Assembly (NCBI GenBank): GCA_019637585.1
Contig: JAHBVL010000013.1
Coordinates: 1 to 64,000, forward strand
Origin: Thermomicrobiales bacterium
Lineage (GTDB): Bacteria > Chloroflexota > Chloroflexia > Thermomicrobiales > UBA6265
Reading direction: 5' to 3'
DNA length: 64,000 bases
Shown piece after piece: positions 933 to 25,273 of this stretch; within the stretch, counting starts at the first letter, position 1; the number at the start of each line of letters is the position of its first letter. The position numbers and the translations under genes were made by a program. Below the pieces are notes generated by a model. That model searched no databases. It worked only from the letters and a program-made list of their open reading frames with translations, and was not told where the DNA came from.

Positions 933-1065
933 CGACAGGAATCGTCTGCCACTTCGATCGCTGGCAGACAACGGGGGAAGACGGTGAAAGTCCGTCGCTG
1001 TCCCGCAACTGTGACCCACTGGATCGATTGATCGCTGGGAAGTCAGAGTACCCGTTCCTGCTCGT
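933..1065 (+). promoter_or_regulatory. Cobalamin (B12) riboswitch
   Basis: The segment has the conserved B12-riboswitch blocks in order: GCCACT at 948-953, GGGGGAAGACGGTGAAAGTC from 972, then the B12-box core GCTGTCCCGCAACTGT ending near 1012, and AAGTCAGAGTACCCG at 1040-1054. The outer P1 helix can form between AGGAA near 938 and TTCCT near 1055. Binding of adenosylcobalamin or a related corrinoid should switch off the operon that starts at 1099. Only the exact boundaries are approximate. Confidence 0.93.
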
Positions 1066-1073
1066 GTCCGGCG

Positions 1074-1094
1074 CCCTTCGTGAGAAAGGGGAGG
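1074..1094 (+). promoter_or_regulatory. Shine-Dalgarno with possible sequestering hairpin (riboswitch expression platform)
   Basis: The ribosome binding site AAAGGGGAGG lies just before the ATG at 1099. CCCTT at 1074-1078 can pair with AAGGG at 1086-1090 across a CGTGAGA loop, hiding part of the site. No T-run follows, so control of translation start is more likely than transcription termination. This is inference from base pairing. Confidence 0.5.
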
Positions 1095-1098
1095 ACGT

Positions 1099-2178
1099 AT
1101 GGCGTTCTTTCAGCGATTCCATCTCTCTGCGCAGGCGAACGCGTCTGCCGCGGCCCGCGGCAAGCGATCGGGTCTTCCTGGCCTGATAGCCAGTTTCGCC
1201 CTGGCCCTCCTGCTGGCGCTGGTGATCTCGCCTGTGCCGGTCGCGGCGCAGGGCGCCGGACCGTCGATGGACGCGGCGGCCGACTGGCTGCTCACCCTGC
1301 GAGACGAAAATGGCGCATTTCCCGGTTTCGATGGGACTCCCGATCCAGGAGTGACGGTCGATGCCGTCACCGCCCTGGCCCTCGCTGGCCGAACGAATGA
1401 CCTCCAGCCGAGCCTGGCTTATCTGGAGGGCGAAGCGCTGGTCTACGCCCAGACAGGTCCCGGTTCCGCGGCGAAGCTGGCGTTGATGCTCATCGTTTCG
1501 GGGCAGAATCCTCGCGACTTCGCCACCGTCGATCCGCTGTCGATCGTCGAGCATGGCGCACAAGCCGGTATGATCGGTTTCGGACCATACGATCATGCGC
1601 TCGGTTTGCTGGCGCTCGCCGCCGGTGGCTCGGCGATTCCTGATGCGGCCATCGAAGCGGTTTGGTCGTCCCAGGGTGAGGAAGGCGGATGGGCGTTCGA
1701 TGGCGCTACAAACGTCGGTGCTGCCGACTCGAACACAACAGCGCTGATGATTCGGGCTCTGGTGGCCACGGGTCATGGCCAGGACGACCGGGTCGGGACG
1801 GCGGCCAGCTGGCTCGCCTCGTTGCTCCTGCCGGAGGGGATGCCCTACCAGACCGGCGGTCCGGCCGATGCCAATTCAACGTCTCTCGCTCTGCGGGCAT
1901 TCGACGCGCTCGGTTCCGGCGGTTCGGCGGGCGTCGCATTCGATGCAGTCGTGGATGCATTGGTGCAGTTCCAGAACGACAACGGCTCCTTCTCCTGGCT
2001 GCTCGATCCACGCGACGAGAACATCTTTTCGACGGTCGAGGCGATTCCGGCTCTGGCGGCGGTCGCCGTCCTGGTCGCGGCGCCGACGCCTGGCGCGGAG
2101 GGTATTCCGGCTTCGCCGGTCGCCTCTCCGGTTGCATCCCCGGAAGCGTCTCCCGTTGGTCTGCGCCCTGCTGCCTGA
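1099..2178 (+). CDS. Secreted alpha/alpha-toroid protein (prenyltransferase/squalene-cyclase-like repeats), probable transcobalamin alpha-domain analogue
   Basis: 359 residues. An N-terminal signal peptide (basic stretch near residue 22, hydrophobic core LIASFALALLLALVISPVPV, cut near AAQ/GAG) sends it across the membrane. Residues about 55-330 are repeats of the type AADWLLTLRDENGAFPGF and EEGGWAFDG...NTTALMIRAL, typical of the alpha/alpha toroid of terpenoid cyclases and of the large domain of transcobalamin and intrinsic factor. The catalytic DXDD of cyclases is not seen, which argues for binding rather than catalysis. The tail is an alanine/serine/proline linker (SPVASPVASPEASPV). It has a near-ideal ribosome binding site and is the first gene under the B12 riboswitch; the next gene overlaps it. 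Role in capturing B12 outside the membrane is inferred from fold and context. Confidence 0.8.
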   Translation: MAFFQRFHLSAQANASAAARGKRSGLPGLIASFALALLLALVISPVPVAAQGAGPSMDAAADWLLTLRDENGAFPGFDGTPDPGVTVDAVTALALAGRTNDLQPSLAYLEGEALVYAQTGPGSAAKLALMLIVSGQNPRDFATVDPLSIVEHGAQAGMIGFGPYDHALGLLALAAGGSAIPDAAIEAVWSSQGEEGGWAFDGATNVGAADSNTTALMIRALVATGHGQDDRVGTAASWLASLLLPEGMPYQTGGPADANSTSLALRAFDALGSGGSAGVAFDAVVDALVQFQNDNGSFSWLLDPRDENIFSTVEAIPALAAVAVLVAAPTPGAEGIPASPVASPVASPEASPVGLRPAA

Positions 2179-2839
2179 TCGGATACTCCGAAAATTGACC
2201 GCCGCTCTGCTGCTTCTTGCCTTCTGGCTGGCAGCATGGGCGCCGGTCGGTGTCGACGCGGAAACGCACCTCGCCGGATTGGTCATCGACTACGGCGATG
2301 GCACGGTGACCTATGCCACTGTGCCGTTCGACGAGGAGACGATCGATGGCATCGAACTGCTGAGGGCGTCGGGATTGTCTCTGGTCTCCATCCCGTTCGG
2401 CGGATTGGGCGAAGGGGTCTGTTCCATCGAAGGGCACGGCTGCGGCGTTGCCGATTGCCGGCGGCTTTGCCAAACCAGTGAACCGAACTCCCCCTTCTGG
2501 CACTACTACGTGCTCGGACCAGACGGGTGGGAGCTTCAGAATCGGGGCGCCAGTGGCACGGATGTCTTGCCGGGGGACATCCAGGGTTGGTCATGGACCG
2601 GCGACGACCCAGATCTTCCCGATGTCGCCTTCGAGGTGTTGCGAGAACGATCCGGATTCGAGGAAGGGTTGGATACAGCTGCTTCGCGTACGGTGGACGC
2701 GGCCGGCATCGTGGTCACGCCGGCTTCTTCCAGCGCCCCGTGGCAGACATACGGGGCGACGGCGTTGATCCTCGTGGTGCTGATCTGCGCGGTGCTGCTC
2801 GCCGCGCGGCGGCGGCAGACGTCCAGGAGCCAGATATGA
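2156..2839 (+). CDS. Secreted, membrane-anchored DUF4430 (transcobalamin C-terminal-like) protein
   Basis: About 227 residues if the TTG at 2156 is the start; a TTG at 2195 is the alternative. I prefer 2156 because GGAAG lies 9 bases upstream and it supplies a basic leader (PDRILRKL) before the hydrophobic core LTAALLLLAFWLAAWAP. The mature part has the DUF4430 signature FWHYYVLGPDGWELQNRGAS followed by a GDIQGWSW strand. This domain family is related to the beta domain that closes over B12 in animal transcobalamin. A four-Cys cluster (CSIEGHGCGVADCRRLC) may form disulfides. Near the end one membrane helix (YGATALILVVLICAVLLAA) and a basic tail anchor it facing outward. It overlaps the genes on both sides, so it is translated with them. 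Function in B12 binding is inference. Confidence 0.8.
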   Translation: MVCALLPDRILRKLTAALLLLAFWLAAWAPVGVDAETHLAGLVIDYGDGTVTYATVPFDEETIDGIELLRASGLSLVSIPFGGLGEGVCSIEGHGCGVADCRRLCQTSEPNSPFWHYYVLGPDGWELQNRGASGTDVLPGDIQGWSWTGDDPDLPDVAFEVLRERSGFEEGLDTAASRTVDAAGIVVTPASSSAPWQTYGATALILVVLICAVLLAARRRQTSRSQI

Positions 2840-3870
2840 GCCGCCGGTTGGATCCGCGAACCTGGATCGTCTGGTGGGTGGCGTCGTCGTTACCGGCGCT
2901 TGTCGGTCGAAACCCGGTGCCGCTGATCACCGTGCTGGTGGCGATTGCGCTGGTGCGGGCTGTGGTTCAGCCTGACAATCAGATCGTTTCTCCCGTCATC
3001 ATTCGCCTCTTCCTGATCCTGGCTGGGATCAGCGTGCTGTTCAACATCCTGACCGTCCACGCCGGCAACATCGTCTTGTTCACGCTCCCGGACCGCCTGC
3101 CCCTGATCGGGGGAGAGGTCACGTTGAATGCCGTCGTGTACGGCTTCCTGAGCGCGCTGGCGATTCTCACCTTGATACTGGCTGGGCTGACTGTTGCTGA
3201 ACAGATCGCCTGGCCCCAGGTGATGCGGATGCTCCCCGATGCGTTGCTTGGGTTTGGAGCCGCCGGTTCGATCGCGCTGGCTTTCTTCCCGCAGATGATC
3301 GCGTCCTTTCGGGAGATCCGGGAGGCGCGACTGATTCGGGGAGCGCCATTGATCGGGTTGCGCGACTACGCCACCATCGTGGCGCCGATGCTTGCTCTGG
3401 GACTGGATCGCGCGGTCACGCTGTCGGAATTGCTCGAAGTGCGGGCGTTCGGCGGATCGGCTGCGCAGCGGGTCCCGGCAACAAGGCGATGGGTGCTGCC
3501 AGCAGCGGTGACGGCCCTCCTCGTTGCCGCCTATCTCTTTCTCACGGCGTCAACGATGCAAGCCGCTCTGGTCGGAGCCGTGGGCATGGCCATGCTGGTC
3601 TGGACCGTATTCGCAGACCGCTCCACGTCATCCGGACGAACTCGATATCAACGCCTAACCTGGACCAGGAGCGATTCGGTTGTCGCATCGGCCAGTGCCG
3701 TCGCGATCGCGGTGATTGCCTGGACGCTGGCCACCCATCCTGATGCGTTGCGCTATGAACCCTATCCAGATCTGACCTGGCCAGCGGCCCGGATTCCGCT
3801 CGTCGCGGGTTTGTGTCTGGTGGCGTCTCCGGCGATCGTCACGCTCTATGGAGAAGGCGATCATGCCTGA
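2836..3870 (+). CDS. ECF transporter T component (EcfT/CbiQ-like) with C-terminal membrane extension
   Basis: 344 residues, polytopic. The ATG overlaps the previous stop (ATGA). Several N-terminal membrane helices precede the two cytoplasmic coupling helices, recognised by EARLIRGAP (about residue 160) and LEVRAFGG (about 200), the Arg-containing motifs that dock into the ABC ATPases. Usual EcfT proteins end one helix after the second motif (about 250-270 residues). Here about 130 residues follow with roughly four hydrophobic segments (AAVTALLVAAYLFLTAST, ALVGAVGMAMLVWTVFA, VVASASAVAIAVIAWTLA, IPLVAGLCLVASPAIVTL), so about three helices are extra. It couples ATP hydrolysis to vitamin or metal uptake. 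No S component is encoded nearby. Family certain; B12 as cargo is inferred from the riboswitch and neighbours. Confidence 0.85.
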   Translation: MSRRLDPRTWIVWWVASSLPALVGRNPVPLITVLVAIALVRAVVQPDNQIVSPVIIRLFLILAGISVLFNILTVHAGNIVLFTLPDRLPLIGGEVTLNAVVYGFLSALAILTLILAGLTVAEQIAWPQVMRMLPDALLGFGAAGSIALAFFPQMIASFREIREARLIRGAPLIGLRDYATIVAPMLALGLDRAVTLSELLEVRAFGGSAAQRVPATRRWVLPAAVTALLVAAYLFLTASTMQAALVGAVGMAMLVWTVFADRSTSSGRTRYQRLTWTRSDSVVASASAVAIAVIAWTLATHPDALRYEPYPDLTWPAARIPLVAGLCLVASPAIVTLYGEGDHA

Positions 3871-5518
3871 CCTGAAACGGGGCGCGGCGCTCATCGACCG
3901 GGTGCGGTATGCCTATCCATCGGCCACCGACGCCGCGATCGAGATGCTCTCCTGGTCGATCGAGGAAGGGACGTTCACGGTCGTCACCGGAGCCTCGGGA
4001 GCGGGGAAATCGACGCAGCTTCGCTTGCTCAACGGGCTGGTGCCCCATTTTTCGGGGGGCCGCTTCGCCGGACAGGTTTCGGTAGGGGGGCGGGACACCC
4101 GATTCGTGCCGACGCGAGATCTCAGCCGGCAGGTTGGGTTTCTGTTTCAGGAACCGGACGGACTCTCCATCGGCGGTCGTGTCGTCGATGAAATCGCGTT
4201 CGGTATGGAGCAGATCGGTGTGCCGGTCGTGGAGATGCGCCGCGCCGTCGAAGAAGCGATGACCCTGCTCGGCGTGGAGCATCTGCGATCGCGAGATATC
4301 GCGACCCTCTCCGGCGGCGAACGGCAGCGCGTGGCGATTGCGGCGGCCATGTCCATGAAACCGGCCATGCTGGTGCTCGATGAACCGACCAGCCAGCTCG
4401 ATCCGGCCGGCGCTGATGATCTGGTCCAGGCTATCCAACAGCTCAACGAAGAACAGGGCGTGACGGTCGTTCTCGCCGAACACCGCCTGGAGCGAGTGCT
4501 CCCTCATGCCGATGAGCTCCGGGTTCTCGTGGCGGGAGGACCGTCGATCGACGGCGACCCCCGAAGCGTGCTGGCCGGTGCGGGCGCCGCATTCGCCCCG
4601 TCGCTGTTCAGGGCCGGACAGTTTCTTGGCTGGGATCCTCCGCCGGTGTCGGTCAAGGAAGGGCGGTTGCTTCGGGCAGGATCGCGGCTTCCGGCCGATC
4701 TGCGCGCTGGCGAGGAGACATCCCCGCCTGGATCGGTCGTGGTGAGCGTGGCTGGCGTCGATCTGGCGCACGAACACCGGCCGGTCCTGAAGGGTGTGGA
4801 AATGGCCCTTCGTCAGGGAGAGATCGTCGCCCTGATGGGACCAAATGGGTCCGGGAAGACAACGCTGTTACGCAGCCTGGTCGGGTTGCACCGAGTGTCC
4901 GGCGGGTCCATTGCAGTCCTCGATCGGCGAATCGACGACTTCGACAAGCAGGAGATCGGCCGCACGATCGGCTACCTGCCTCAGCGAGCCAGATCGGTGC
5001 TCTTCTGCGAATCGGTCCAGGAGGAGATCGATTTCTCGCTTCGCCACCGGCATGCTTCCCGCTCGCGATTGACGGACTTGCTGGAAGAGTTCGATCTGAT
5101 CCATGTCGCAAACCGGCATCCCCTCGATCTGAGCATCGGGGAACAGGAGCGGCTGGCGCTGGCCGCCACACTGGCTGGTGATCCGCCGGTTCTCCTGCTC
5201 GATGAGCCGACACGGGGGCTGGATCGGGCGCGTAAAGAGCGACTCGCAGCTTCGTTGCGACGGCGAGCGGCGAGTGGGCAGGTTGTGGTGGAGGCGACCC
5301 ACGACGTGGAGTTCGCCGCAGAAACCGCCAGCCGAGTGCTCCTCCTGGGAGGAGGGGAGATCATCGCGGATGGAAGCCCCCGTACGATCTTCGACGGCTC
5401 GATGGTCTATGGCACGCAAATCAACAAAGTATTCGGCCATGGAATGTTGATATTCGGCGATGTGCAAGCTGCCGTGCGTGCTCCAGAATTCGGTGATACT
5501 TCCGGGGTGCCGGAATAA
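3863..5518 (+). CDS. ECF transporter double ATPase (EcfA-A' fusion)
   Basis: About 551 residues containing two ABC ATPase domains in tandem. First domain: Walker A GASGAGKST (about residue 45), signature LSGGERQRV, Walker B MLVLDEP. Second domain: Walker A GPNGSGKTT (about 330), a variant signature LSIGEQERL, Walker B VLLLDEPTRGLD. One chain thus supplies both ATPase subunits of an ECF importer. I chose the ATG at 3863 because GGAGAAGG lies 7-8 bases ahead; an in-frame ATG at 3848 has no ribosome binding site. Either start overlaps the end of the T-component gene (stop at 3868-3870), so translation is coupled. The non-canonical second signature suggests unequal nucleotide sites. Last gene of the riboswitch operon. 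Confidence 0.9.
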   Translation: MPDLKRGAALIDRVRYAYPSATDAAIEMLSWSIEEGTFTVVTGASGAGKSTQLRLLNGLVPHFSGGRFAGQVSVGGRDTRFVPTRDLSRQVGFLFQEPDGLSIGGRVVDEIAFGMEQIGVPVVEMRRAVEEAMTLLGVEHLRSRDIATLSGGERQRVAIAAAMSMKPAMLVLDEPTSQLDPAGADDLVQAIQQLNEEQGVTVVLAEHRLERVLPHADELRVLVAGGPSIDGDPRSVLAGAGAAFAPSLFRAGQFLGWDPPPVSVKEGRLLRAGSRLPADLRAGEETSPPGSVVVSVAGVDLAHEHRPVLKGVEMALRQGEIVALMGPNGSGKTTLLRSLVGLHRVSGGSIAVLDRRIDDFDKQEIGRTIGYLPQRARSVLFCESVQEEIDFSLRHRHASRSRLTDLLEEFDLIHVANRHPLDLSIGEQERLALAATLAGDPPVLLLDEPTRGLDRARKERLAASLRRRAASGQVVVEATHDVEFAAETASRVLLLGGGEIIADGSPRTIFDGSMVYGTQINKVFGHGMLIFGDVQAAVRAPEFGDTSGVPE

Positions 5519-21653: not shown

Positions 21654-21807
21654 CGAACCGTTGCTTCGTCAGGATTGGCGGTCCATACAGGTGGACGGCG
21701 CGGAGACAGATTGATCAGCCGTCGGGCAGTGTATCACGGTCAATTTTCACGATCGCCGCTGCGCAATTTTCGTTTGACGGATTCCGTCATTTCTTCATGG
21801 ACTCGCC

Positions 21808-21813
21808 TACAAT
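21808..21813 (+). promoter_or_regulatory. metH: Possible -10 element (TACAAT) immediately before metH
   Basis: TACAAT ends 7 bases before the ATG at 21821, so transcription would begin at or next to the start codon and the message would be leaderless. A TTGACG at 21774 is too far (28 bases) to be its -35. No Shine-Dalgarno is seen before this ATG. Confidence 0.4.
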
Positions 21814-21820
21814 TGCGGAA

Positions 21821-24800
21821 ATGAACGACTTGCTTTCCCTGGCCCGGGAGCGCGTTGTTGTCTATGACGGCTCGATGGGCGCCACAATCCTCAACATGCA
21901 GCTCACCGCCGAAGACTATGGCGGCAAGGAAGGCTGCAACGAGTTCCTCGTCTTTCACAATCCGTCGATCATCGAGGGGATTCACGCATCCTATCTCGAG
22001 CTCGGCGTGGATGTCATCGAAACCGACACCTTCGGCGGCAGTCAGATCAAGCTGGAGGAGTATGGTCTCGGCGATCAAACCTACGCGCTGAACAGGGCCG
22101 CCGCCGCGCTGGCCAGGAAGGTCGCCGACGCCTATTCGACTCCCGCTCACCCCCGCTTTGTCGCCGGTTCGATCGGTCCCACCGGCTTGCTGCCAGCATC
22201 TGAGGATCCGATGCTGGGACAGCATCGCTTTCGAGAGGTCGTCGACCTCTTCCTCGATCAGGTCAGGGGGCTTGTCGATGGCGGAAGCGACATCCTGATC
22301 GTCGAAACGGTGCAGGACATCCTGGAGCTGAAAGCGGCATTTCACGCCATCCGGCTGGTCAGCGAAGAGCGGGGCAAGGGCATTCCGGTCCATGCGTCCC
22401 TGACGCTCGATACCTCCGAGCGGATGCTCCTCGGCACCGACATCGCGGCTGGTTTGAGCATCGTGGAGCATCTGGGACCGGACGTCGTCGGACTGAACTG
22501 CTCGACTGGGCCTGAACATATGCGGGAACCGGCTCGCTATCTGGGAGAACACTCGACCAAACCAGTCGCCATCATTCCCAATGCCGGAATTCCGGTCAAT
22601 GTGAATGGTCTGGCCGTTTTTCCGCTCGAACCTGAGCCGATGGCCAGGCAGCTGCGCGAGATGGTCGAGAACTTTCAGGTCGGCATCGTTGGCGGTTGTT
22701 GCGGCACCACGCCCGATCACCTGCGCGAGCTTCTGAGGGAGATCGCATCCCGGCCGGTCACGGTCCGGCCAACGGCTCCGCGACGTCAGATCGCGTCGAT
22801 GATCCGCGCGACCGACATGATGCAGGAACCGGCGCCGATGATCGTTGGCGAACGCCTGAATGCCCAGGGCTCCCGCAAGGTCAAGCGTTTGGTGCTCGCT
22901 GATGACTACGACGGGCTGCTCGAAGTCGCCCGGATGCAGGTCGACGAAGGCGCCCATGCCCTCGATGTCTGCATGGCCCTGACTGAGCGTGCGGACGAGC
23001 GGGAGATCATGCGTCAGTTGGTCAAAAAGCTGGCGCTCAGCGTGGAAGTGCCGCTGGTCATCGACTCCACCGAACCCGATGTGATCCAGGATGCGCTGGA
23101 GCAGTATCCGGGCCGGGCGATTGTCAACTCGATCAACATGGAAAACGGCAGAACCCGGATCGAATCGGTCATGCCACTGGTCATGGCCCACGGTGCGGCT
23201 GTGGTTGCACTGACCATCGATCAGGTTGGTATGGCCAAGACGGCCGGGCGAAAGGTCGAGGTCGCCAGGGCGATTCACGACATCGTGACGACACAGTATG
23301 GCCTGCCACCCGAGGATCTCATCTTCGACGCACTGACATTCACCCTGGCCACCGGCGATCCCGAGTTCGCCAATTCCGCCGTCGAAACGATCGAGGGGAT
23401 TCGCCAGATCGAATCCGAGCTGCCGGGGGTGTTGACGATCCTGGGCGTTTCCAATGTGTCGTTCGGTCTCTCTCCCGCGGGCCGCCGGGTTCTGAACGCG
23501 GTTTTCCTCTATCACGCGGTGCGAGCGGGGCTGGATATGGCCATCATCCATCCCAGCCATGTCCTGCCCTTTTCGGAGATCCCCGCGCAGGAACGGGATT
23601 TCGCTGAGGATCTCGTTTTCAACCGCCGGCCGGACGCGCTCCAGCGCTTCATCGAGTTTTTCGAGGGGCGAGAAGAAACAGTCGCGGCAACCGGGCCAGA
23701 TCCTATGGCCGAGCTGCCGGTCAGGGAGCGACTGCACTACCGGATCCTTCATCGAAAGAAAGAAGGGGTCGAAGGAGATATCGACCAGGCGATCGCCGAC
23801 TCAGGCGACGCGGTCGAAGTGCTGAACAATGTGCTCTTGCCAGCGATGAAAGAGGTCGGCGACAAGTTCGGCGCCGGCGAGCTGATTCTGCCCTTCGTCC
23901 TCCAGTCGGCCGAGGTGATGAAGCGTGCGGTGTCGAGGCTGGAAACCTACCTCGAGCGCCAGGAGGGCGTATCCAAGGGGATCGTCGTGCTGGCCACCGT
24001 CTATGGCGACGTCCACGATATCGGCAAGAACCTGGTCAACACCATTCTGACCAACAATGGCTACACCGTGCACGACCTGGGCAAACAGGTGCCGGTGACC
24101 ACGATTATCGAGAAAGCGGTCGAGGTCCACGCATCGGCCATCGGACTGTCGGCTTTGCTCGTCTCGACCAGCAAGCAGATGCCGCTCTGCGTTGAAGAGC
24201 TGCGGCACCGCGATCTTGGATTTCCCGTGATGATTGGCGGCGCCGCCATCAACCGACCCTATGCCCACCGGACGCTCTACGCCGGCGGCGAGACGCCATA
24301 CGAATCAGGCGTCTTCTACGCGCGCGATGCCTTCGAAGGTTTGTCGATCATGGACCAGCTCATCGATCCAGGGCAGCGATCGACGCTGGTGGCCGAAACG
24401 TTCGCGGCCGCCGAAACGGCGCTGAAGAAAGGGGTGCGCGACTCCTTCAAAGCGCCAGTCGAGGCATCCGAAGTCGTCCGCTCGTCTGTGCCACAGGTGG
24501 AACCGCGGTCGCCGCCATTTTGGGGTGTTCGTCAGCTCGACGACATTCCGCTGGCCGACGTCTGGCCCCACCTCGATCTGAAAACACTCTTCCGCCTTCA
24601 CTGGGGAGGAAAAGGGTTGAAGGACGAGGAATGGGTCCGGATGCTGCGCGAGGAATTCAATCCCCGGTTGGCCCAGATGAAAGAGGACGCCGAACGAACC
24701 GGCTGGCTCGAACCCCGGGTGCGGTATGGGTACTTCCCGGCGAATGGGGATGGAAACGATCTGGTCATTTTCGATCCGTCGGATTCGGCTGCGGAGCTGG

Positions 24801-25273
24801 CGCGGTTCAACTTCCCGCGCCAACCCGCCCGGGAGCGGCTCTGCCTGGCGGACTACTTTCTGCCGATCGAAACAGGCAAGCGCGACGTGGCTGTGCTGCA
24901 GCTCGTCACGCAAGGAGCCAAGGCCACACAACGCACGGAGTCGTTGCAGGCGGCCAGCGAGTATTCCGAAGCGTTCTTCAGCCATGGGTTGAGCGTCCAG
25001 AGCGCTGAAGGGCTCGCTGAGCTCATCCACCAGCGGGTCCGATCGGAGCTCGGCATCGGACCGGAAACCGGCAAGCGCTATTCCTGGGGCTATCCCGCCT
25101 GTCCGGACCTCTCACAGCATGCGATCGTCGACCAACTCCTGGGAAGCGCGCTGATCGGTGTGTCGATCACCGACGGCTTCCAGTTCGACCCGGAGCAGAC
25201 CACGGCCGCGCTCGTCGTGCACCACCCCGACGCGAAGTACTACGCTCTGGCCCGAACGGGCGGCGAGGAGTAG
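21821..25273 (+). CDS. metH: Cobalamin-dependent methionine synthase
   Basis: 1150 residues with all four modules in order. Homocysteine-binding domain (residues about 1-310) with the zinc ligands in NCSTGP and GGCCGT (about 291). Methyltetrahydrofolate-binding pterin domain (about 340-600: VGERLNAQGSRKVKR, DVCMALTERADE). B12 domain (about 630-870) with the lower-ligand motif DVHDIGKN near residue 730. C-terminal activation domain (about 930-1150) with the AdoMet motif RYSWGYPACPD. It methylates homocysteine using methyl-B12 in the cytoplasm. I chose the ATG at 21821; an ATG at 21797 adds eight residues but has no better signal. It makes the cell dependent on B12 supply, in keeping with the riboswitch uptake operon 16 kb away. 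No B12 riboswitch is seen before metH. Confidence 0.97.
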   Translation: MNDLLSLARERVVVYDGSMGATILNMQLTAEDYGGKEGCNEFLVFHNPSIIEGIHASYLELGVDVIETDTFGGSQIKLEEYGLGDQTYALNRAAAALARKVADAYSTPAHPRFVAGSIGPTGLLPASEDPMLGQHRFREVVDLFLDQVRGLVDGGSDILIVETVQDILELKAAFHAIRLVSEERGKGIPVHASLTLDTSERMLLGTDIAAGLSIVEHLGPDVVGLNCSTGPEHMREPARYLGEHSTKPVAIIPNAGIPVNVNGLAVFPLEPEPMARQLREMVENFQVGIVGGCCGTTPDHLRELLREIASRPVTVRPTAPRRQIASMIRATDMMQEPAPMIVGERLNAQGSRKVKRLVLADDYDGLLEVARMQVDEGAHALDVCMALTERADEREIMRQLVKKLALSVEVPLVIDSTEPDVIQDALEQYPGRAIVNSINMENGRTRIESVMPLVMAHGAAVVALTIDQVGMAKTAGRKVEVARAIHDIVTTQYGLPPEDLIFDALTFTLATGDPEFANSAVETIEGIRQIESELPGVLTILGVSNVSFGLSPAGRRVLNAVFLYHAVRAGLDMAIIHPSHVLPFSEIPAQERDFAEDLVFNRRPDALQRFIEFFEGREETVAATGPDPMAELPVRERLHYRILHRKKEGVEGDIDQAIADSGDAVEVLNNVLLPAMKEVGDKFGAGELILPFVLQSAEVMKRAVSRLETYLERQEGVSKGIVVLATVYGDVHDIGKNLVNTILTNNGYTVHDLGKQVPVTTIIEKAVEVHASAIGLSALLVSTSKQMPLCVEELRHRDLGFPVMIGGAAINRPYAHRTLYAGGETPYESGVFYARDAFEGLSIMDQLIDPGQRSTLVAETFAAAETALKKGVRDSFKAPVEASEVVRSSVPQVEPRSPPFWGVRQLDDIPLADVWPHLDLKTLFRLHWGGKGLKDEEWVRMLREEFNPRLAQMKEDAERTGWLEPRVRYGYFPANGDGNDLVIFDPSDSAAELARFNFPRQPARERLCLADYFLPIETGKRDVAVLQLVTQGAKATQRTESLQAASEYSEAFFSHGLSVQSAEGLAELIHQRVRSELGIGPETGKRYSWGYPACPDLSQHAIVDQLLGSALIGVSITDGFQFDPEQTTAALVVHHPDAKYYALARTGGEE

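Follow-up and report, generated by a model that had tools for sequence, protein, structure and literature searches.

In the usual view of energy-coupling factor (ECF) importers, the vitamin is bound by the membrane S component alone. Among them, CbrTUV (ECF-CbrT) is the cobalamin transporter of lactobacilli (PMC5997447; PMC6722938; PMC6593275), and it carries both cobalamin and cobinamide (PMC5997447); the characterised ECF-CbrT of Lactobacillus delbrueckii is active in vitro without toroid or beta parts. Here we describe a four-gene operon near the start of a 64,000-nucleotide stretch of DNA from a Thermomicrobiales bacterium of the phylum Chloroflexota (the window: positions 1 to 64,000 of contig JAHBVL010000013.1, assembly GCA_019637585.1). 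A cobalamin riboswitch heads the operon, and its genes encode a secreted alpha/alpha-toroid protein, a secreted and membrane-anchored beta protein, and the T and ATPase components of an ECF transporter. We propose that the locus probably specifies a CbrTUV-type B12 importer equipped with a two-piece, transcobalamin-like receptor.

Lactobacilli, too, have operons made up of these components. On plasmid pMF1298-5 of Lactiplantibacillus plantarum, genes for T, AA', S, a toroid and a DUF4430 protein adjoin cobC and cobS, and the transporter was named CbrVUT by its authors (PMC6722938). The product labelled "fucose-binding lectin II" in this CbrVUT operon (L192:9653-10705) is an alpha/alpha-toroid by its match to our toroid profile (E 2.4e-17), and the lectin label is probably a misnaming. 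In Latilactobacillus curvatus p1_CACC879 (L171:7100-7458) the five-gene order is LPXTG toroid, DUF4430, T, AA' and S; a toroid-DUF4430-T-A-S operon is also present at a further locus (L196). A proteome paper lists an L. rhamnosus protein whose annotation makes it an extra lipoprotein part of a putative cobalamin ECF transporter, and it also describes a DUF4430 protein whose gene lies near rtpR, a ribonucleotide reductase gene (PMC9963975). The preliminary description of the window had overlooked this annotation. At the level of annotation, a genomic link between DUF4430 proteins and transport of cobalamin by ECF systems has thus been made before. In the open-access literature, we found no paper on a transcobalamin parallel or on toroid-beta fusions in bacteria.

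The locus resembles CbrTUV in having an EcfT (compare CbrV) and a duplicated ATPase (compare CbrU), and the S family of its genome is nearest CbrT. It differs in that the S gene of the window's genome is not part of the T/A operon, a cobalamin riboswitch governs that operon, and the beta protein is SCO2322-like rather than a Pfam DUF4430 protein. The DUF4430 proteins of Bacillota hold an equal operon position (L171, L196) and share the fold, whereas the Chloroflexota beta proteins score under the DUF4430 model. Animal transcobalamin, intrinsic factor and haptocorrin share the toroid-plus-beta make-up, a beta fold matched by our predicted model and, in relatives of the window, the one-chain form. 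In the window, however, the two parts are separate proteins, the beta protein has four conserved cysteines and a membrane anchor, the toroid shows no detectable sequence kinship, and the partner is an ECF importer rather than an endocytic receptor. Gene 1 and the beta domains match the families SCO2321 and SCO2322, respectively, which we take to be consecutive Streptomyces locus tags, although genes 1 and 2 themselves fall under the curated cut-offs. BtuBFCD and BtuG/BtuH rely on extracellular capture of B12 followed by ATP-driven import; this logic would be shared with the window's system, but the folds and the type of ABC protein are unrelated.

A riboswitch-led operon and a distant S gene

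The cobalamin riboswitch and four-gene operon named in the preliminary description are borne out. A cmscan search of Rfam places RF00174 at positions 922-1073 of the window, on the forward strand and over the full model length. The match has an E of 2.3e-10, and its 53 bits exceed the gathering score of 31.5; its end lies 25 nt before the start of gene 1. Elsewhere in the genome (3.94 Mb, 96.6% complete) RF00174 has no further match. Downstream follow four tightly packed genes on the same strand (1099-5518), with gene pairs that overlap or nearly do so. Low B12 would open the riboswitch and turn the operon on, and B12 would switch it off.

The 61 order-level relatives that we searched hold 72 cobalamin riboswitches, of which 43 lie directly upstream of a toroid gene on the same strand; this homologous position is occupied in 43 of the 45 toroid-bearing genomes. 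At 53 of the 64 loci fetched across the phylum, RF00174 precedes whichever toroid or beta domain comes first, at a distance of 100-400 nt. The 11 loci without an upstream riboswitch include two that have no upstream sequence, two solitary toroid paralogues and one with a sub-threshold match (L047). The survey of toroid-beta co-occurrence under B12 riboswitches that had been suggested at the outset thus came out in favour of the link, and a search for the pair under unrelated riboswitches found no other class at the toroid-beta-ECF operons examined. B12 control of the toroid, beta and ECF genes is conserved across Chloroflexota. Two further cobalamin riboswitches of relatives were inspected, and both stand directly 5' of genes that read, from the sequence, as class I ribonucleotide reductases (L231:2713-6048 and L232:2844-6502), an arrangement that would place a B12-independent isozyme under B12 control and that, on its gene content, matches a normal B12 regulon.

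Genes 3 and 4 would form the energising module, an EcfT with a duplicated EcfA. Gene 3 (2836-3870, forward strand) shares an ATGA overlap with gene 2, passes the CbiQ cut-off (PF02361, 25.9 bits against 25) and encodes the sole EcfT, and the sole CbiQ-family protein, found in the genome. The CbrU-like gene 4 (3848-5518, forward strand) carries two ABC domains, EcfA-A', in one chain (PF00005, 9.1e-60); its matches to the ECF_ATPase models (5.9e-92 and 3.4e-91) are both just under the cut-offs. The claim of ECF T/A-A' machinery therefore stands in these two genes, but it overlooked the S component, which is absent from the operon's four genes and is encoded on another contig.

This S gene (contig 29:125687-126568) specifies a protein that is 50% identical to the S protein encoded in a relative's operon (E 4.7e-61) and that passes the PF12822 cut-off. 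It lies just upstream of NrdJ, a class II, B12-dependent ribonucleotide reductase (PF08471, 2.3e-40). With a profile of the S family, the first match is CbrT of L. delbrueckii (6fnp, 1.7e-14); the next S protein follows at 2.7e-4 and the folate S proteins at 0.06-0.5. On this measure the family is closest to the proven B12 transporter CbrT. Most toroid-bearing relatives have an S gene as well (42 of 45, some as fragments), and because gene 3 is the sole CbiQ-family protein of the genome, S has no other visible partner there. An operon that works without S, using T or beta as the substrate binder, was considered and rejected, as the S gene was found in the genome and in most relatives. The placement of S beside nrdJ was likewise rejected as a general rule, since it occurs in three genomes only, the window's own included. 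Judged by gene content, the system falls outside the CbiMNQO cobalt ECF transporters: no CbiM-like gene is among the operon's four genes, and the genome's S protein is CbrT-like.

Two B12-dependent enzymes are encoded in the genome, NrdJ and the methionine synthase MetH. The latter lies in the window, outside the operon (21797-25273, forward strand; PF02965, PF02607 and PF02310 all above cut-off), about 16 kb away and without a riboswitch of its own. CobS, which is needed to complete cobalamin, was not found in the genome. With no CobS, yet with MetH and NrdJ, the organism most likely depends on imported B12. The substrate would be cobalamin or corrinoid precursors, and we hold with high confidence that the system is a B12 or corrinoid importer.

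The toroid and beta proteins

Gene 1 (1099-2178, forward strand) has a GGAGG just 5' of its ATG and encodes, as the preliminary description proposed, a signal-type N-terminal segment followed by an alpha/alpha-toroid of the squalene-cyclase superfamily. The assignment draws on profile matches and on the model of a homologous fusion. Its match to NCBIfam SCO2321 (5.6e-20) is under the family cut-off and that to the Pfam squalene-cyclase superfamily is weak (E 0.0058); against the Pfam squalene-hopene cyclase model it reaches 16.3 bits and fails the cut-off of 26.2. The Pfam scan gave no match of gene 1 to PF01122 (Cobalamin_bind), and one fused relative reached 0.027, under cut-off. When a predicted model of a two-toroid relative was compared by fold, terpene cyclases came first, and transcobalamin and haptocorrin were also matched (E from 1.7e-6); the toroids of the natural fusion L175 were modelled by AlphaFold at a pLDDT of about 90. 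In these predicted structures, the kinship of the toroid with the transcobalamin alpha domain holds at the level of fold only. Second toroid paralogues occur in two genomes that have a B12 operon (L059:7634-8788 and L066:7825-8988); neither a beta gene nor ECF genes nor a riboswitch lie close to them.

Gene 2 (2156-2839, forward strand; TTG start, with an alternative TTG start at 2195) encodes a SCO2322-like protein with hydrophobic segments at residues 10-35 and, as the C-terminal membrane anchor, at residues 195-222. These segments agree with the earlier claim of a secreted, membrane-anchored DUF4430 protein, but the family name does not hold: gene 2 has no match to Pfam DUF4430 (PF14478, cut-off 23.8 bits) at E<=1, and no DUF4430 match was found in the window's genome. 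Pfam scans thus rule out gene 2 as a Pfam DUF4430 protein, and we keep the relation at fold level only. NCBIfam SCO2322 is matched by 30 of the 32 beta domains (best 2.6e-9), with gene 2 under the curated cut-off. Within the beta family, five columns are invariant (G62, W82, W92, G107 and W112, numbered along the modelled piece) and four cysteines are nearly so.

The resemblance of gene 2 to the animal carriers lies in its predicted fold. Residues 34-165, modelled by AlphaFold2 with 32 homologues, have a mean pLDDT of 93.6 and a pTM of 0.87, and they delimit a transcobalamin-beta-like domain at positions 2255-2650 of the window (forward strand). In a Foldseek search of the Protein Data Bank (PDB) with this predicted model, rank 1 is 3u7z, a DUF4430 protein of Ruminococcus gnavus, and ranks 1-14 are all 3u7z, transcobalamin or haptocorrin. 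Ranks 2-7 and 9-14 belong to transcobalamin and haptocorrin, at probability 1.00; ranks 2-14 comprise human and rat transcobalamin, haptocorrin and chain B of 3u7z, and they include structures of the beta domain on its own, both with cyanocobalamin and without it (5no0, 5np4). Intrinsic factor appears at ranks 22 and 27, and the matches in between are far lower in TM. The suggested relation between the DUF4430 fold and the transcobalamin beta domain is thereby upheld, and the DUF4430/transcobalamin-beta identity of gene 2 holds at the level of its predicted fold.

Both extracytoplasmic proteins very likely belong to the importer. The secreted toroid and the membrane-tethered beta protein would clasp a corrinoid on the outer side of the membrane, in the manner of transcobalamin, and would pass it to the CbrT-like S component encoded beside NrdJ; the T/AA' module would then cycle S with ATP and so move the corrinoid across the membrane. 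A transcobalamin-like working of the pair is plausible, and the ligand, which we infer to be B12, is probably held between toroid and beta domain. We do not claim membership of the transcobalamin family, because the toroid falls outside it by sequence and the two proteins are separate.

Linkage and fusions in Chloroflexota

Our scans of genome contigs covered Chloroflexota genomes. Of the 158 genomes searched within the class, 82 have a homologue of gene 1; gene 2 has homologues in 43 of 61 close relatives, and the beta-domain profile has matches in 115 of 399 Chloroflexota genomes. Linkage was counted over 91 distinct beta loci, with denominators restricted to loci that have enough flanking sequence. 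A toroid gene lies within 3.5 kb of the beta gene, on the same strand, at 79 of 89 loci; EcfT is near beta in 69 of 72, the double ATPase in 57 of 68 and an S component in 27 of 53. The usual order is riboswitch, toroid, one or two beta genes, T, AA' and S, or alternatively S before T. As read from sequence, cobC and cobS stand between beta and T in Chloroflexus-type loci. The stoichiometry of the genes varies, with two beta proteins per toroid in some operons and two toroids per beta in others.

In the window, toroid and beta domain are encoded by two genes. In relatives (L174-L176, L080 and L194) they form a toroid-first single chain, the order seen in transcobalamin. Three related genomes (L174-L176) encode a chain of toroid, toroid, beta domain and membrane anchor, followed immediately by S, T and AA'; the L080 chain carries its beta domain (i-Evalue 1e-40) at the C-terminal end, behind two toroids; and a 652-residue Chloroflexota protein (L194) exceeds two Pfam cut-offs, that of SQHop_cyclase_C and that of DUF4430. 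Two further chains have the beta domain before two toroids (L075, L172). Other fusions join the beta domain to the transporter itself. It is fused in frame to EcfT at two loci (L044:6929-8884 and L072:4848-6677), and a 522-residue protein (L187:7236-8804) consists of a beta domain, a membrane helix and an S component. Through these fusions, the toroid and beta parts are linked with one another as well as with the transporter.

Alternative readings and implications

Several results weigh against a CbrTUV-type importer with a transcobalamin-like receptor. In the AlphaFold model of the fusion L175, the pLDDT of the beta part stayed under 50, because only 4 of the 14 sequences cover it, and no interface was obtained. 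Kinship to transcobalamin by sequence was sought and rejected: in PDB profile searches with each alignment, the toroid and fusion profiles did not reach transcobalamin, the toroid profile came nearest to squalene-hopene cyclases (7.2e-39), and the beta family profile had no PDB sequence match at all, transcobalamin included. In Pfam scans DUF4430 was matched by one of 32 beta family members (E 0.15), and the beta family is linked weakly to six DUF4430 domains (hhalign probability 22.6%, E 9e-4). The five-gene operon of L. curvatus has no cobalamin riboswitch at E<=1, and the neighbourhood of S and NrdJ was seen only in the three genomes mentioned above. Finally, eleven matches to FecCD-type permeases in the genome suggest that a BtuCD route may also be present.

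A first alternative is a B12 ECF importer in which the toroid and beta proteins do not sandwich B12 and are instead accessory parts, for example a scaffold for EcfT, a dock for B12 arriving from other secreted proteins, or a single binder. The fusions of the beta domain to EcfT and to S would fit a docking part, the varying toroid-to-beta ratio agrees with such a role, and structure prediction gave no interface. On the other hand, the nearest solved structures of the beta domain are all B12-carrier beta domains or DUF4430, and single toroid-beta chains recur, the transcobalamin order among them. We consider this alternative unlikely. A second possibility is that the importer takes up a B12-related compound rather than cobalamin, namely cobalt, cobinamide or a base that serves as lower ligand (dimethylbenzimidazole, for instance). 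In many bacteria the uptake of cobalt and of precursors is under the control of cobalamin riboswitches, gene 3 is of the CbiQ family, and cobC and cobS in some operons would complete cobinamide salvage. We nevertheless find it improbable: the window's genome has no CobS, so cobinamide could not be finished, and the S family is nearest CbrT, which carries cobalamin and cobinamide (PMC5997447), and is not CbiM-like. Import of cobinamide would in any case largely fit a corrinoid importer with a two-piece receptor. It is very improbable that gene 1 encodes a squalene-cyclase-like or prenyltransferase-like enzyme that shares the operon by chance, despite the profile's proximity to squalene-hopene cyclase, given that type II cyclases require the DxDD catalytic motif, present in 1 of 30 family toroids, and that the toroid is secreted, fused to beta in relatives and linked to a B12 importer.

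If the two-piece receptor is real, its addition to an ECF importer would be a new bacterial way to scavenge B12 at very low concentration, and a large number of toroid, DUF4430 and SCO2321/SCO2322 genes that lack names would be accounted for. Its reach would extend from the 115 Chloroflexota genomes with a beta domain to the same-component operons of lactobacilli. It also gives a concrete test of the origin of the animal B12 carriers and of whether bacteria grip B12 as animals do. One could envision that transcobalamin, intrinsic factor and haptocorrin go back to a bacterial toroid-beta ancestor resembling the Chloroflexota fusions, with the same grip on B12, a descent that we regard as possible but doubtful.

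Two observations concern the relatives. Downstream of the toroid operon in one Chloroflexus-type locus, positions L062:3636-3873 match a T-box leader with 79 bits, below the gathering score of 93. In another relative (L227, G009:C111), the CbrT-like S gene is present in two copies on one contig, about 14 kb apart.

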